Of a stretch of DNA of 64,000 nucleotides, positions 38,277 to 45,751 are shown in pieces. A program made the translations under genes and the position numbers. Source of the stretch: Myxococcota bacterium (GTDB lineage: Bacteria; Myxococcota_A; UBA9160; UBA6930); contig JANQOX010000001.1 in NCBI GenBank assembly GCA_028285625.1, positions 1-64,000 of the forward strand, written 5' to 3'. Below the pieces are notes generated by a model, which ran no database searches, was not told the DNA's origin, and worked only from the letters and a program-made list of their open reading frames with translations. The first letter of the stretch is position 1; each line of letters starts with the position of its first letter.

Positions 38277-39452
38277 TCAGGCGAGGCTCGAGAGCATCAT
38301 GCCCTGGGCGGGCAGGCCGAGCAGCACGCGCCCGCCGTCCTCGATGTGGTGGGGCGCCACGGTCGTGTGCTGGCGGACCACGCGCACGTCGCGCGCACGG
38401 CGCTCGAGCGGCGAGTCGAGCGGGTTGGCGCTGGTGCCGGCGGCCTCGACCACCTGATCCACGGCCTCGGCGCATGCGCGCACCGCGTCGCTGCAGGCGA
38501 TCTGCAGCAGCGCGCGGGCACGCGCGTCGAGCTCGCGGCCTTCACGAACGGCCTGCCAGAGCTCGTCGAGGGACTCGAATACGAAGGCGCGTGCGCCGCG
38601 CAGGCGGGCCTCGCCCTGGGCGATGGCGCGCTGGGCGAAGGGACGCTCGCGCAGCGTCGTCGAGGTGAAGCGCGGCACCTTGCCGGCCGCGAGCTCGCCG
38701 AACGCGTCGAGGGCGCCGCGCGCGATGCCCAGCGCCACCCCCACCTTGTTGTAGGCGAGGCGCGCCCCGAGCGGCACACGCGCCGCGGGCGGAACCGTGT
38801 CCGCCCCACCCGACGCCCGGGTGCCGAAGCCCACCGTGTCCTGCTCGGCGACGAAGACGTCGTCGACGCGGACGTCGTGAGAGCCCGAACCGCGAAGCCC
38901 GGCCACGTGCCAGGTGTCGAGGATCTCGATCGACTCGCGCGGTACGAGCATGAAGCGCGGTGGGGTGCCTTGGCGGGGGGCCCCGCCCTCGTGCACGATC
39001 GAGAGCCCGGAGAACCAGGTCGCGTTGTGGCAGCCGCTCACGAAGGGCCACTGGCCACTCAGCCGATAGCCGCCGTCGGTGACGTCGGCCCGGCCGAAAC
39101 TGGCGGTCGAACCCGCCGGGATCGCCAGCGGGTCGGCAAACAGCTCGGCCGCTCGCGCAAAGCCCGCCGTCAGCAGGCCGAAGGTCTCGATGCCGATCAT
39201 CAGGTTCCAGCCCGTGGCGCCGTCGGCTTCGGAGATGGCCTCGATGGTGCGCACCTGGGTGGCAGGGTCGTGCTCGCCGCCACCGAGCCGGGCCGAAGCG
39301 GCCACGCGGTAGAGGCCGGCTTCGGCCATCGCCCGGGCCACCGGGGCCGGCAGTCGGCGGTCGCGCTCGGCCTCGTCGGCGTGGTCCCTGACAAGGGGCT
39401 GGAGGGCCGTCGCACGTGCGACCGGGTCGTCGAGCGTGTCGGAGTGGGTCAT
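38277..39452 (-). CDS. Acyl-CoA dehydrogenase / flavin-dependent monooxygenase (group D-like)
   Basis: N-terminal ACAD helices, ADGATGWNLMIGIETFGLL, YRLSGQWPFVSGCHNATWF, RGSGSHDVRVDDVFV, C-terminal LDSPLERRARDVRVVRQHTTVAPHHIED. Confidence 0.9.
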   Translation of the reverse strand: MTHSDTLDDPVARATALQPLVRDHADEAERDRRLPAPVARAMAEAGLYRVAASARLGGGEHDPATQVRTIEAISEADGATGWNLMIGIETFGLLTAGFARAAELFADPLAIPAGSTASFGRADVTDGGYRLSGQWPFVSGCHNATWFSGLSIVHEGGAPRQGTPPRFMLVPRESIEILDTWHVAGLRGSGSHDVRVDDVFVAEQDTVGFGTRASGGADTVPPAARVPLGARLAYNKVGVALGIARGALDAFGELAAGKVPRFTSTTLRERPFAQRAIAQGEARLRGARAFVFESLDELWQAVREGRELDARARALLQIACSDAVRACAEAVDQVVEAAGTSANPLDSPLERRARDVRVVRQHTTVAPHHIEDGGRVLLGLPAQGMMLSSLA

Positions 39453-39512
39453 GGCCCGAGGGTAGTGCGGGCCGGGGCGCCTGGGTGCTGGCGAGGTGGC
39501 GCCCAACCGCAA

Positions 39513-39540
39513 GACGCCGCGGGCGCGGGCCCGCGGCGTC
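39513..39540 (-). terminator. GC-rich hairpin downstream of tRNA-His
   Basis: Perfect 12-bp stem gacgccgcgggc / gcccgcggcgtc, 4-nt loop; tail poorly U-rich. Confidence 0.45.
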
Positions 39541-39552
39541 CTCGAAGATGGG

Positions 39553-39630
39553 TGGGGTGAGCGAGGGGAATCGAACCCCCGACCTCCGGAACCACAACCC
39601 GGCGCTCTAACCAACTGAGCTACGCCCACC
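39553..39630 (-). tRNA. tRNA-His (anticodon GTG), CCA encoded, with G-1
   Basis: Reverse complement GGTGGGCGTAGCTCAGTTGGTTAGAGCGCCGGGTTGTGGTTCCGGAGGTCGGGGGTTCGAATCCCCTCGCTCACCCCA; loop TTGTGGT. Confidence 0.96.
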
Positions 39631-39778
39631 GCAGACGGCCCAACCTAGAGCCGCGCCCGAGGGGTGTCAAACGGGCCGGTTAGGGGCGCAGGGGGCCGCC
39701 GCGTTCGCCTGGATCGACTGGCGTGGGCGGCGCCCGGTGGCGAGAATAGACCCTCTCTCACCAAGGAGACGACCTCCG

Positions 39779-40273
39779 TTGAACCGCCAAATCCTCGAAC
39801 GGTTTCGAGCCGGGTGTGCAGGCTCCGCCGTCGCGCTGCTCGTTGCGAGCGGCCTGGCGATGCCCGCCTTCGCCAACGCGCCGGTCATCTACCCGGCCCA
39901 GGGCCAGACACCCGACCAGCAGACCAAGGACCAGGGCGAGTGCCACGTGTGGGCCGTCCAGACCACGGGCGTGGACCCGGCGGCGCTCGCGACCCAGGCC
40001 CCGCAGAGCACCCAGACGGCGCCCGGAGGCCAGCGCGTTCGGGGTGCAGCGCGCGGCGCCGCCGGCGGCGCCGCCATCGGTGCGATCGCGGGCGATGCCG
40101 GAGAGGGTGCGGCGATCGGCGCCGTCGCCGGCACGATGGCCGGCGGTCGCCGCTCGCGCATGGCCCAGCAGCAGGGTCAGCAGGCCGCCCAGGCTCAGCG
40201 GAACGAGACGGTCAATACCTACTACCGCGCGGTTGCAGCCTGCATGACCGGCCGCGGCTACACGGTGCAGTGA
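39779..40273 (+). CDS. Secreted glycine-zipper protein (TTG start)
   Basis: Signal peptide; GAARGAAGGAAIGAIAGDAGEGAAIGAVAGTMAGG glycine zipper; AAGGAG Shine-Dalgarno upstream of TTG 39779. Confidence 0.85.
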   Translation: MNRQILERFRAGCAGSAVALLVASGLAMPAFANAPVIYPAQGQTPDQQTKDQGECHVWAVQTTGVDPAALATQAPQSTQTAPGGQRVRGAARGAAGGAAIGAIAGDAGEGAAIGAVAGTMAGGRRSRMAQQQGQQAAQAQRNETVNTYYRAVAACMTGRGYTVQ

Positions 40274-40689
40274 TGATGCGACGAAACGCGCTTTGCAAGA
40301 GAGTCGGATGGGCCGCGATCGCGGCCCTCGCCTGCGCGCTGGCGATGCCGGCCTGGGCCGGCGACTTCGACGGCAAGAAGGCGCTGATCTGCGCACCGGT
40401 CGAGGTGAACGACTGCATCAGCGGGGCACCCTGCCTGGGTGGCACGCCGTCGCAGATGGGCGCCCCCTCGTTCCTGCGGATCGACTTCTCCAAGTCCACG
40501 GTGACCGGGCCCCACAACACGGCCAAGATCGCCTCGGTCGAGAAGGTCGGAGATCAGCTGGTGCTGCAGGGCTTCGAGGTCGGGCATGCGTTCGCCATCG
40601 CGATCGATCGCGAGAGCGGCCGGATGACGACGACCCTCGCCAGCACGCAGGGTGCGTTCGTGCTGTTCGGCTCTTGCACGACCCAGTGA
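40273..40689 (+). CDS. Secreted protein of unknown function
   Basis: MMRRNALCKRVGWAAIAALACALAMPAWAGDFDGKKALICAPVEVNDC; start overlaps the TGA of the preceding gene (TGATG). Confidence 0.8.
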   Translation: MMRRNALCKRVGWAAIAALACALAMPAWAGDFDGKKALICAPVEVNDCISGAPCLGGTPSQMGAPSFLRIDFSKSTVTGPHNTAKIASVEKVGDQLVLQGFEVGHAFAIAIDRESGRMTTTLASTQGAFVLFGSCTTQ

Positions 40690-40748
40690 GCCTGCTCGTG
40701 CGGGTCGCCTGGCCCGTCCGGTAGCGCAAGCTTGGTCGAAGCCGCGTC

Positions 40749-41543
40749 ATGATCCCGGCGACCCTCGTGGTTCTCGCGCTCGCGCTGGGTGTGGGCGTGC
40801 TGGCCAGCACGACCGTGCAGCGCCGGGCAAGTGAAGGCGACGACGGCCTCAAGCTCGACCTGGTGGTGTCGCCGCTGCTCACGCTGACTGCGCTGCTGCT
40901 CGCGTTCGTGCTGGTACAGGTGTTCTCGTCCTACACCCGCGTGAAGCTCTCGACCGGCGAAGAGGCGGGGATGGTGGTCGGCGAGTTCAAGCAGTTCGGC
41001 CTGCTGCCCGAGCCCTACGCCACGCGCGGTCAGACCAACATGGTGTGCTACGCGCGCGCGGTGGCCGAAGTCGAGTGGCCCCAGCTCGGCAAGGGCCTGC
41101 GGGTAGCGCCCGAGCCCGGGTTCTGGATCGCGCGGCTCGACGTCGATCTACGCGAGCTCGCCGATCGACGCAGCAACCCGCCCTTTGGTTCGATCGTGAA
41201 CACCGATCGCGAACGCATCGACGCCCGGCGCAGCCGCCTGATGGAGGCACGGCCCGCCGTTCCACCGCCGGTCACGTGGCTGATGTTGGCCGTGAGTGCA
41301 GTCAGCATCCTGTCCATCGCGATGATCACGCCGGTCGCCCGCGCACGACGCCTGCAGATCGCCATGTTCTCGCTGCTGGCCGCCGTGTTCGCCGCCGTCC
41401 AGATCACGATCATCGAGATCGACGACAAGTTCGACGGCCTGATCCGCGTGGAACCCGAGGAGATGCGCCTGGTTCTGGGCGTGATGGAGCAGGTGCTCGC
41501 CGACACCGAGCTGCCCTGCGACGCGCAGGGCCGGCCCCTGTAG
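40749..41543 (+). CDS. Membrane protein, DUF4239/bestrophin-like
   Basis: Two N-terminal TMs, VVGEFKQFGLLPEPYATRGQTNMVCYARAVAEVEWPQL, two C-terminal TMs. Confidence 0.75.
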   Translation: MIPATLVVLALALGVGVLASTTVQRRASEGDDGLKLDLVVSPLLTLTALLLAFVLVQVFSSYTRVKLSTGEEAGMVVGEFKQFGLLPEPYATRGQTNMVCYARAVAEVEWPQLGKGLRVAPEPGFWIARLDVDLRELADRRSNPPFGSIVNTDRERIDARRSRLMEARPAVPPPVTWLMLAVSAVSILSIAMITPVARARRLQIAMFSLLAAVFAAVQITIIEIDDKFDGLIRVEPEEMRLVLGVMEQVLADTELPCDAQGRPL

Positions 41544-41568
41544 GCGGGGCCGAGGCGATCCGCGCGGC

Positions 41569-41617
41569 GAGCGGCTAGCTGCGATCCTCGCGTGAGCGGC
41601 TAGCTGCGATCCTCGCG
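41569..41617. repeat. 25-bp period tandem duplication spanning the stop codon of the coiled-coil gene
   Basis: gagcggctagctgcgatcctcgcg at 41569-41592 and 41594-41617, identical. Confidence 0.95.
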
Positions 41618-42058
41618 ATGCAGGTCGATCAGCCGCTGCTGCATCTCGAGCAGCCGATCGGTCGTCTCGCGCTGCACTTGGATGATCTGGGCGGCGGTCT
41701 CGCGCTGCACCGCACTGATCTGGGCCGCCGTCTCTCGTTGCACCTGGTTGATCTGCTGAGCGGTCGAGACCTGGACATCCGTGATCCGCTCCTGCAGGTC
41801 GAGGATGCGATCGGTGGTCGATTCCTGCAGGTCGAGAATCCGCTGGGTCGTGACCTGCTGACCATTCCAGAGCAGGCCGAAGCCGAGCGCCATCAGGGCG
41901 AAGCTCGGCCCGCTGAGCTTCAGCCAGGCTCCGAACGGGATGTGCGACCAGAACCGGTCGGCTTCGTGAGGTCTCGCCACGACGGCCTCCTCGTGCTCGT
42001 GTTCCGCCGCCTCCAGTCGCTCGATGCGGGCCAGGAGGTCTTCGAGATTCGCAGCCAT
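41600..42058 (-). CDS. Small membrane-anchored coiled-coil protein with 11-residue repeats
   Basis: One hydrophobic segment; repeats QRETAAQISAV / QRETAAQIIQV / QRETTDRLLEM. Confidence 0.8.
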   Translation of the reverse strand: MAANLEDLLARIERLEAAEHEHEEAVVARPHEADRFWSHIPFGAWLKLSGPSFALMALGFGLLWNGQQVTTQRILDLQESTTDRILDLQERITDVQVSTAQQINQVQRETAAQISAVQRETAAQIIQVQRETTDRLLEMQQRLIDLHREDRS

Positions 42059-42121
42059 CCATCTGCTCCCCGGGACCTTGGGGATCGCAGCCACTCTAGC
42101 GCGTTGCGATCTGGGAGCGCG

Positions 42122-42493
42122 TTAGGCGCTGTCATCGGCGGGGAGCGGGCCGAAGAACCCGATTACCCGCGCCACGCGGCCCGCTTCGTCCAGCTCGGTC
42201 ACGTCGAACCCCGGCATGATGAGCTTGCCGTCCTGGTGGATCGCCCAGGCGTAGCGATAGAAGCCGTGCTGCGCGTCCACACCGCTGGCCCGCGAGTAGA
42301 CGGCGCCCGGCAGGCGGCCGTGCACCTCGTGCACGTTCTTCTCGAAGCCGTCGATGCCCACGACGTCGATCGACGGGTCGACGAACCGCACGTCGGGTCG
42401 AAGCGCCTGGTCGAGGTGGCCGCGCACCTTCGACGCGTCCGGCTCATTCCAAGCCGCGAGCATCAGATCGAGCGCCGGGGGAATCTCGGTCAT
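42122..42493 (-). CDS. SnoaL-like / NTF2-fold protein
   Basis: LMLAAWNEPDASKVRGHLDQALRPDVRFVDPSIDVVGIDGFEKNVHEVHGRLPG. Confidence 0.8.
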   Translation of the reverse strand: MTEIPPALDLMLAAWNEPDASKVRGHLDQALRPDVRFVDPSIDVVGIDGFEKNVHEVHGRLPGAVYSRASGVDAQHGFYRYAWAIHQDGKLIMPGFDVTELDEAGRVARVIGFFGPLPADDSA

Positions 42494-42654
42494 CGGGGGC
42501 CCTCCACAGCCGGGTGCGGGGAGGCTAGCCCCTCGGCACGCGCGGCGTACCGACGGAGCAGCCGTGGGCCGAGGGGGCGCCACCGGTGGCGATCGCCCGC
42601 CTCCGGTACCCTCGCTCAATCCCGCGAGAGGCCGCCCAGCGGCCCCTCGCGCGC

Positions 42655-42731
42655 GCCCCGGTAGCTCAGCTGGATAGAGCGGCTGCCTTCTAAGCAGCGG
42701 GTCGCAGGTTCGAGTCCTGCCCGGGGCGCCA
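42655..42731 (+). tRNA. tRNA-Arg (anticodon TCT), CCA encoded
   Basis: GCCCCGGTAGCTCAGCTGGATAGAGCGGCTGCCTTCTAAGCAGCGGGTCGCAGGTTCGAGTCCTGCCCGGGGCGCCA; loop CTTCTAA. Confidence 0.97.
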
Positions 42732-42834
42732 GGGCATCGTCGCGAGACCCCAGGTGTTGGTTCCGCGCTTCGGCAGGTCTGCAGTTGCAGGCCCTCGCCT
42801 CCGGCTGGCGCCCCAGCGAGCTGCCTCCCTGAAG

Positions 42835-43422
42835 CTACGCGCGTCGTCGTCGTGCTGCGAGGCTGGTCAGGCCGAGGGCGAGGAGCATTGCGGTGGAGGG
42901 CTCGGGGACGGGAACACCAGACAGGAACGCTTGGTTCGTAGAGCGGAAAGGCGAACAGTTCAAGCACTCGCCAGTTTCGACTACCGGCAGGGAAGCGACA
43001 GGAGTGTCCAAGGCGTCCAGCAGACCAAACGTGTTGCTGAATCGGAAGAGTCTGTTCGAACCGTTGAGGGTGAATTCGATTCCGCTACCGCCGAAGATGA
43101 TATTGGCCGCGATCGAGTTCGCCGGCGTGTAGGTCAGCAAGGGAAACGTAGTCGTGTCGCCTCCGCTCAGAGTGAGTTCCCAATCGGTGGCACTTCCAAG
43201 CGCCGTATCCCAGACGAAGGACCCCGAAACCTCGCCACAGGTCCCGGGTGTCGGGCAAGAGAGGAGGGGGTCGAAGCTCCCGTCGAAACCAAAGTCGAAC
43301 TGACCGTCGTTCACGGTCCAGCGGATTTCGATCGCGTGAGCAGGTGCGGTCGTCAGGAATGCCGCAGCGGCCGGCAAGAAGAGCATGGCGAGAGTGACGA
43401 TCCGCACTAGTCGGAAGTGCAT
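42835..43422 (-). CDS. PEP-CTERM sorting domain protein
   Basis: Signal peptide and C-terminal VPEPSTAMLLALGLTSLAARRRRA (PEP motif, TM, Arg-rich tail). Confidence 0.93.
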   Translation of the reverse strand: MHFRLVRIVTLAMLFLPAAAAFLTTAPAHAIEIRWTVNDGQFDFGFDGSFDPLLSCPTPGTCGEVSGSFVWDTALGSATDWELTLSGGDTTTFPLLTYTPANSIAANIIFGGSGIEFTLNGSNRLFRFSNTFGLLDALDTPVASLPVVETGECLNCSPFRSTNQAFLSGVPVPEPSTAMLLALGLTSLAARRRRA

Positions 43423-43773
43423 CTGGTCTCCAGTTCGATTGCAGGTTCGGCACCAAGAGGTGAGGGGAAACCCTAATGAGGTGATCAGCGTGTCAGCTGC
43501 GCCGCCACGAGGAGGGTGCCGGGCGTGGCGCCGACAACTTGGGAGTCGCCATGGGTGCGCAAAAGGTGACGCGCCGTGTGCAAGAAACTTCAGTCTTCTC
43601 TGTGGGGATGGCCCCGTGCGTGGCCGCCTTGTGAACCCCGGGCGACGGTCGCCGGCCTCCGGGTGCTGCAGGAGTGCTGCATCAGCGATCGACGACGGCC
43701 ACCACCGCCGGACGAACCTAGAAGTCCAAACCTCCGACATCACCACGGAACCGAAAGCTGTGGACGTCCGCAG

Positions 43774-43939
43774 TCAGAGGCGGACCCTGCCCGGAGCCAA
43801 CTTCCAAGCAGCGGGCCGCAGGTTCGAGGGCGCCGGGATCATCACGGCCTCGAGGTCGCCCTGGCGCATCCAGTGCCCGCCGCCCATCTCACCACCGATG
43901 AAGTCGCCGGGGCCGTAGATCGCGTCGCGGGCCCCGTGC
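43774..43939 (-). pseudogene. Truncated coding remnant of unknown family
   Basis: Open frame reads HGARDAIYGPGDFIGGEMGGGHWMRQGDLEAVMIPAPSNLRPAAWKLAPGRVRL* with coding-like GC3 up to ~APS; no upstream start (abuts the next gene's stop); last part is the tRNA-derived segment. Confidence 0.5.
43801..43828 (+). repeat. tRNA-Arg(TCT)-derived fragment (anticodon loop to T-loop), direct repeat of 42687-42714
   Basis: cttccaagcagcgggccgcaggttcgag vs cttctaagcagcgggtcgcaggttcgag: 26/28 identical. Confidence 0.85.
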
Positions 43940-44479
43940 TCAGGCCCGCCCGCGCCTCCTGCGCGCCGCGGCGAAGCCGCTCAGCGTACCGACGGCTGCC
44001 AGGGCGATGGTCGTGGGCTCCGGTGCCGAGTGGGCGGTGATCAGCTCGATCACGAACGACTCGCCCGCCTGGAAGGTCGGGGCGGGGCTCCCCGGGTCGA
44101 GCAGGAACTGGTGCTCGGTGAAGGACGAGAAGGAGGGTTCGAAGCCCGGGAAGTTCAGGCCGACGATCTCACCATCGATGAGTTCGCCCTGGTCGTCCCG
44201 CCAGTCCAGGCTCTGGGCGTTCACCCGGAAGTTCCAAGGTCGCGTCTGCAGGAACCGGATCGTCACCGACTCGGCGTCGAAGTCGAGCTCGACCTGGTCG
44301 CCGAGGATGAGGTACTCGGCGCCGTCCCCGACCACGGCCGACCCGTTGAACAGGCCCTGCCCGGTCTGGGTGGTCACCAGGAGGAACACGGAGTCGCCGA
44401 TGAGCGATGCGGACGCGGGCATGGCCCAGAGCAGTGCAGCGACGAGAATGGGAAGAGCAGCGCGGGGAGCGAGTCGCAC
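43940..44479 (-). CDS. PEP-CTERM sorting domain protein
   Basis: Signal peptide and C-terminal SAPEPTTIALAAVGTLSGFAAARRRRGRA. Confidence 0.92.
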   Translation of the reverse strand: MRLAPRAALPILVAALLWAMPASASLIGDSVFLLVTTQTGQGLFNGSAVVGDGAEYLILGDQVELDFDAESVTIRFLQTRPWNFRVNAQSLDWRDDQGELIDGEIVGLNFPGFEPSFSSFTEHQFLLDPGSPAPTFQAGESFVIELITAHSAPEPTTIALAAVGTLSGFAAARRRRGRA

Positions 44480-44734
44480 GTCGGACCTCCTCGACTCCGG
44501 GATTCCGGGTCGTCGGGGTTAGGTGGTGCGGGCCACGCCGATGTGTCACGCGTACGCAGTGCGTGTGAGTCGGCCCCCAGGGGCGCGACCTTCGGAAAAC
44601 CGGGAGTGGCCGACGCTTTCCGCGCGACCTCGGGCCCTCGGAGTTCTGAGGGACACCGGCGGTTGACCGAGTGGGAGCATGTACCCAGAATGGTCGAGGA
44701 CGTACGTGAGAATTCCTCCACGGGGAAGCAACAC

Positions 44735-45751
44735 ATGCCCGCACGTCGTCCGACCGTCGTGGTCGGTGCATTGCTCGTCGTGGCGTCGATCGCTGCGCTG
44801 CCGGCGTGTTGGTGGTCCGACCCCGATTCCGGGGGGCCCGATCCCGATCTCGGCACGTTCGATGTGGCGCGGGGCGATCTGCTGCTGGCGCACTACGACA
44901 ACCGGCCCGATACCGATGACATCCACTCCCAGGCGGCGACTGCCACCATGGTGGCGTGGCTCGAGGAGAAGGAGGGCCTGAACGTCGACGACCAATTCCA
45001 CGCCGTGCTGGGGGCGTACGGCATCAACCAGTTCACCGCCCCGTTCGTCGATTCGTCGGCGGTGATGGAGATCTGCTTCGGACCGGAAGGGGACGCATGG
45101 AGCATGGCCCACCCTCGTCACTCCCAGCCGTGGCAGGAGTCGGTGGCCGAAGTGTCCGAGAAGGTGCACGCAACGCTGACCCGATCGCCGGATTCGAAGG
45201 TGTGGATCCTGGAGGGTGGCCAGTCGGACTTCACCCACGAGGTCTACGGGCGACTCACCGGGGACCTGGACATCCCCCTGTCGCGAGACGAGCTCAGGGA
45301 ACGGATCGTCGTGATCCAGCACAACGCAGGTTTCTACAACGAGGCCTTGGCGAGCCCGTCCCGCCTGGTGTCGGTGCGGGAGAACACGACCTACGTGGTC
45401 ATGCCGAACGGGAACTTCTCGGGCAACGGATCGCCTGGGCTGAAGCTCGAGGCCGGGTCGCCCAGCCTCGATCGGGTCAAGGCTCATGCCTCGAGCCTGT
45501 CGGGGAGGAATGTGTCGGGTGCGGGTGGCGCCCTCGACGCCTGCTGGGAGGCCGCCTTCGCCCGGGCTCGGGCCAAGAAATGGATGTTCCTCATCAACCC
45601 GACCATCCACGAAGGGGGCCTCGACTTCTCCGACGCGGTCGCTGGCGTGCGGGCGTTGGGCCTCGACGACGACCCCGCCTTCGACGTGCCGCAGGACGGC
45701 AGCGACGTGGCCGGGTTCTTCGAGGTGTTTACCGGGTACCGACGGGAGTAG
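44735..45751 (+). CDS. Putative lipoprotein, possibly nucleoside-hydrolase-like
   Basis: Lipobox VVASIAALPAC; LLLAHYDNRPDTDDIHSQAATATM is reminiscent of the IUNH Asp cluster. Confidence 0.6.
   Translation: MPARRPTVVVGALLVVASIAALPACWWSDPDSGGPDPDLGTFDVARGDLLLAHYDNRPDTDDIHSQAATATMVAWLEEKEGLNVDDQFHAVLGAYGINQFTAPFVDSSAVMEICFGPEGDAWSMAHPRHSQPWQESVAEVSEKVHATLTRSPDSKVWILEGGQSDFTHEVYGRLTGDLDIPLSRDELRERIVVIQHNAGFYNEALASPSRLVSVRENTTYVVMPNGNFSGNGSPGLKLEAGSPSLDRVKAHASSLSGRNVSGAGGALDACWEAAFARARAKKWMFLINPTIHEGGLDFSDAVAGVRALGLDDDPAFDVPQDGSDVAGFFEVFTGYRRE

Follow-up and report, generated by a model that had tools for sequence, protein, structure and literature searches.

In the 64-kb window, by which we mean the whole stretch of DNA analysed here, a tRNA-Arg(TCT) gene is followed by a displaced copy of part of its own 3′ half, and the 1.1-kb segment that the two enclose, probably foreign DNA, is most probably the decayed relic or scar of a tRNA-borne integrative element, with a PEP-CTERM gene as its last remaining cargo. 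Elements of this kind are known, and the locus adds a further case. When a tyrosine integrase inserts an element into a tRNA gene, the insertion splits that gene, which is made whole again by sequence from the element while its former end is moved away, so that the tRNA gene and the fragment mark the two ends of the element (PMC4383910). This is the arrangement by which such islands are recognised and it is seen in the window, where a full tRNA gene has a displaced 3′ fragment downstream of it in the same orientation.

Across its full length the tRNA-Arg(TCT) gene is 95–100% identical to copies in six further genomes from the order. A repeat search recovered 42687–42714 in direct orientation at 43801–43828, with 26 of 28 nt identical (93%); these are the coordinates and the identity reported in the first-pass annotation, whose judgement that the match is too good for chance also stands. 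Under the base composition, a match of at least 26/28 is expected by chance at 6e-14 per site, about 1e-10 per 2 kb and 7e-7 per genome. The first repeated base is C33, with which the seven-nucleotide anticodon loop opens. Within the displaced copy, tRNA positions 33–60 are clear and positions 71–76 are likely to follow after a 10-nt gap: because the hexanucleotide GGCGCC, matching positions 71–76, comes after position 60, the copy resembles a damaged 33–77 fragment, and these six nucleotides are suggestive of a copy that spans 43801–43834 and has suffered a 10-nt deletion (see table). Immediately upstream lies a short stretch with some resemblance to the tRNA 3′ end. Scored against a tRNA of the G044 type, the segment around it (43740–43800) is equalled by 3 of 1802 background windows; against the window's own tRNA, however, 97 of 1818 background windows match it and an older tRNA fragment at 43786–43797 is thus not established.

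Table. Features of the tRNA-Arg(TCT) locus in window coordinates
Feature	Position	Strand	Basis
tRNA-Arg(TCT), intact; attL-like end in the model, where the tRNA gene would have been rebuilt	42655..42731	+	ARAGORN
Anticodon loop CTTCTAA, where the repeat starts; putative strand-exchange region	42687..42693	+	Nine solo fragments, from six relatives, have this left boundary
Segment enclosed by the two tRNA copies, with unusually low GC (63.2%)	42732..43800	.	
PEP-CTERM protein gene, 195 aa, probable cargo	42835..43422	-	PF07589 and TIGR02595 over cut-off
CCTGCCCGGAGC, resembling the tRNA 3′ end (positions 62–73); possible older fragment, weak	43786..43797	+	
Displaced tRNA fragment, tRNA positions 33–60, 26/28 identical, attR-like	43801..43828	+	
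GGCGCC, possible tRNA positions 71–76 past a 10-nt deletion	43829..43834	+	Alignment, 6 nt, suggestive

The interval between the copies stands out from its surroundings. At 63.2%, its GC content is below that of every other 1,069-bp stretch of the 64 kb (mean 70.5%, SD 2.6), and it holds one clear gene only, the PEP-CTERM ORF. At 0.72, the GC3 of this gene compares with 0.85–0.93 for neighbouring genes, and its codon-usage score falls below those of all 40 reference ORFs of the window, making it the most atypical. The first-pass annotation had placed a single PEP-CTERM gene between the copies and described that gene as looking lower in GC than its surroundings, with composition and codon usage as the check; each of these points is borne out. 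No ORF of an integrase kind is present in the interval and none of the Phage_integrase matches of the genome falls within the 64-kb window. In the predicted 195-aa protein, the sorting motif (PF07589, TIGR02595) scores above the curated cut-off and the genome encodes an exosortase, as expected for a PEP-CTERM protein; the signal peptide was judged by eye only. Searches of relatives with this protein returned mainly matches to the sorting motif. Its mature domain has no close match in the relatives, plasmids, phages and solved structures searched; for the protein as a whole, plasmids and phages yielded no homologue and solved structures no convincing one. A donor in genus g25 had been hinted at by the displaced fragment, which is one base nearer to the tRNA of G044, and by weak matches of the protein in that genus, but this candidate was dropped: the mature domain is unmatched, and the direction of exchange would not leave the donor's 3′ end in the displaced copy.

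The PEP-CTERM gene class itself is not foreign to the genome, since 26 such genes score over the Pfam cut-off, another of them also has low GC3 (among the other 25, 24 lie at 0.82–0.93 and one at 0.62) and yet another (43940–44479) is found just outside the interval. The frequency of these genes and the presence of one directly beside the fragment lend some weight to an account that we regard as distinctly less probable, in which the locus has two histories, the tRNA fragment being an old island scar and the PEP-CTERM gene either native or a later arrival by another route. The shift in composition coincides with the interval, however, and the adjoining PEP-CTERM gene is of normal composition, GC3 included, and shares no similarity with the interval gene (42835–43422) at the protein level beyond the motif. 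These observations favour the reading that the interval was inserted as such and that the PEP-CTERM gene arrived with the element. A separate feature of the neighbouring gene is a 45-nt stretch within it that has a 76% identical copy just past the gene's 3′ end (43872–43916 and 44152–44196), possibly the leftover of a duplicated gene end.

Relatives show that tRNA-Arg(TCT) is an integration hotspot in the order. Six other genomes together hold nine solo 33–77 fragments, all of which begin, like the window copy, at position 33 and are preceded by unrelated sequence, except that for one of them, in G006 (L085), the match runs a few bases further. The solo fragments of G006, G009 and G013 are on contigs other than that carrying tRNA-Arg(TCT). 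In G010 (L083), a 12.9-kb interval has an integrase gene abutting tRNA-Arg(TCT) at one end, a 33–77 fragment at the other and genes for AAA_25 and HTH_17 proteins in between. The reading frame of the G010 integrase extends into the antisense strand of the tRNA gene; this crossing is seen at L083:17101-18417 and L074:4900-6327, where the last residues of the protein are tRNA-encoded. An integrase spanning the attachment site has precedents, among them that of the virus Mx8 (PMC4383910). Integrases related to that of G010 adjoin the same tRNA in G005 and G016, the G016 gene being cut by the contig end, and in G023 the displaced fragment is found 13.9 kb from tRNA-Arg(TCT). A GCCGTATAGGGCCGT-like motif occurs downstream of the tRNA in G022, G010, G023 and G005 and also upstream of the fragment in the first three; these motifs are putative integrase arm sites, and searches at both ends of the window interval found none. 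A left arm of another kind, 84% identical over 287 bp, is common to the fragments of G013 and of contig C42 in G023, so more than one element family uses the site.

That integrases abut the same tRNA in G005, G010 and G016, that displaced 33–77 fragments lie downstream of it in G022, G010 and G023, and that the composition and codon usage of the window interval are atypical all support the earlier reading of this segment as a decayed or minimal integrative element, or scar. It is very unlikely that illegitimate recombination, with no integrase involved, instead duplicated part of the tRNA gene to give the second copy. Whilst this would suit the finding that the window's genome has a single solo tRNA-Arg(TCT) fragment, with no integrase near it, it does not sit well with a left boundary at the very base seen in the nine fragments of relatives, nor with the fact that no tRNA-flanking sequence was copied along.

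Further features were seen at tRNA-Arg genes. In G017 and G016 (L070 and L080), the tRNA 3′ end (positions 56/57 to 75/77) recurs as short repeats 81–184 bp downstream of tRNA-Arg(TCT), perhaps as traces of other integrations with a T-loop boundary. The window's own genome has, at G000:C5:114903-116312 (L136), an integrase abutting tRNA-Arg(GCG) in the same antisense arrangement and 55% identical to one in G011.

The synteny comparison found no neighbours of tRNA-Arg(TCT) in the relatives that are shared with the window flanks and offered no empty site for comparison. In G001 only 47.2–49.3 kb of the window is conserved, and the sole same-genus genome (85% complete) gave no match to a TCT-type core with as many as two mismatches allowed and shows no assembled tRNA-Arg(TCT). 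Viral contigs were searched for a free attP: the seven exact core matches all lie within complete tRNA-Arg genes, and the CTTCC variant of the core gave no matches. The gap on the other side of the tRNA, between tRNA-His(GTG) and tRNA-Arg(TCT), also varies, from about 25–240 bp in eight loci among the relatives, where the two genes are mostly divergent, to 1.1 kb in G002 and G025, 3.0 kb in the window (39553–42654) and 7.6 kb in G012. No tRNA-His fragment was found in 38501–45000. Within this gap, two perfect copies of the 24-mer GAGCGGCTAGCTGCGATCCTCGCG lie 25 bp apart in intergenic sequence (41569–41617).

A small unit is present in G022 (L064:1756-3423), whose tRNA-Arg(TCT) is identical to that of the window. 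Here, perfect 45-nt repeats (positions 33–77) bound a 1.6-kb interval, the fragment being 1.59 kb from the tRNA; the unit has one full ORF, of membrane type and without a Pfam match, and arm-like motifs at both ends, and a complete integrase is absent. A 14-nt remnant, CTTCTAAGCAGCGG, lies at +159. Small integrase-less units with good sites thus exist in the order, which leaves some room for the window segment having been inserted small, as a minimal unit that had no integrase and whose att sites served in trans as targets for the integrase of a different tRNA-Arg(TCT) element. We consider this improbable: the window interval has a damaged far site and shows no arm motif, whilst the G022 unit still has, beside the tRNA, an apparent integrase C-terminus and may therefore itself be a deletion product. 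Equally doubtful is the broader proposal that single-cargo units of 1–2 kb, lacking an integrase, enter tRNA-Arg(TCT) across the order and are moved in trans by integrases that share the site. The G022 unit makes continued movement of such units testable and, were the proposal true, they would be screened out by the length and integrase filters that island finders such as Islander apply.

The favoured reading, that of a decayed element, can be set out as a series of steps. An element with a tyrosine integrase would have recombined at tRNA-Arg(TCT), with strand exchange in the anticodon loop, as the shared left boundary suggests. Integration would have restored an intact tRNA gene at 42655–42731, the near end, whilst the original 3′ part was carried to the far end (43801–43834). 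Later the integrase and most other contents of the element would have disappeared and the displaced site would have decayed through two substitutions and a probable 10-nt deletion, leaving about 1.1 kb with one PEP-CTERM gene that was probably cargo. Export of its product and processing by the host exosortase are predicted.

Taken together, these results document a tRNA-Arg(TCT) hotspot at which more than one kind of element uses one anticodon-loop site, and suggest one route by which genes for PEP-CTERM surface proteins may be acquired. Intervals so small and without an integrase may be under-counted, since Islander has a length limit of 2 kb and its filters reject small integrase-less intervals (PMC4383910). 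The class A islands of Islander, with crossover in the anticodon loop (PMC4383910), likewise consist of a tRNA gene and a same-orientation 3′ fragment that starts in the anticodon loop; the window locus differs in having no integrase, in being 1.1 kb long and so below the 2-kb limit, and in the internal gap of its fragment. With the 12.9-kb element of G010 it shares the tRNA gene and the left boundary of the fragment at position 33, whereas the antisense-running integrase, the AAA_25 and HTH_17 genes and the arm-like motifs of that element are all absent from the window interval. A possible parallel, with descent from an ICE or IME and mobilisation both conjectural here, is the cis-mobilizable element, or CIME (PMC5704250), in which the genes for integration and transfer are absent whilst the sites at both ends are still recognisable. 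The window interval has no such genes, and its two ends are att-like, the far one being damaged. Decay fits this locus, since its interval is integrase-less and its far site damaged, as described for CIMEs.
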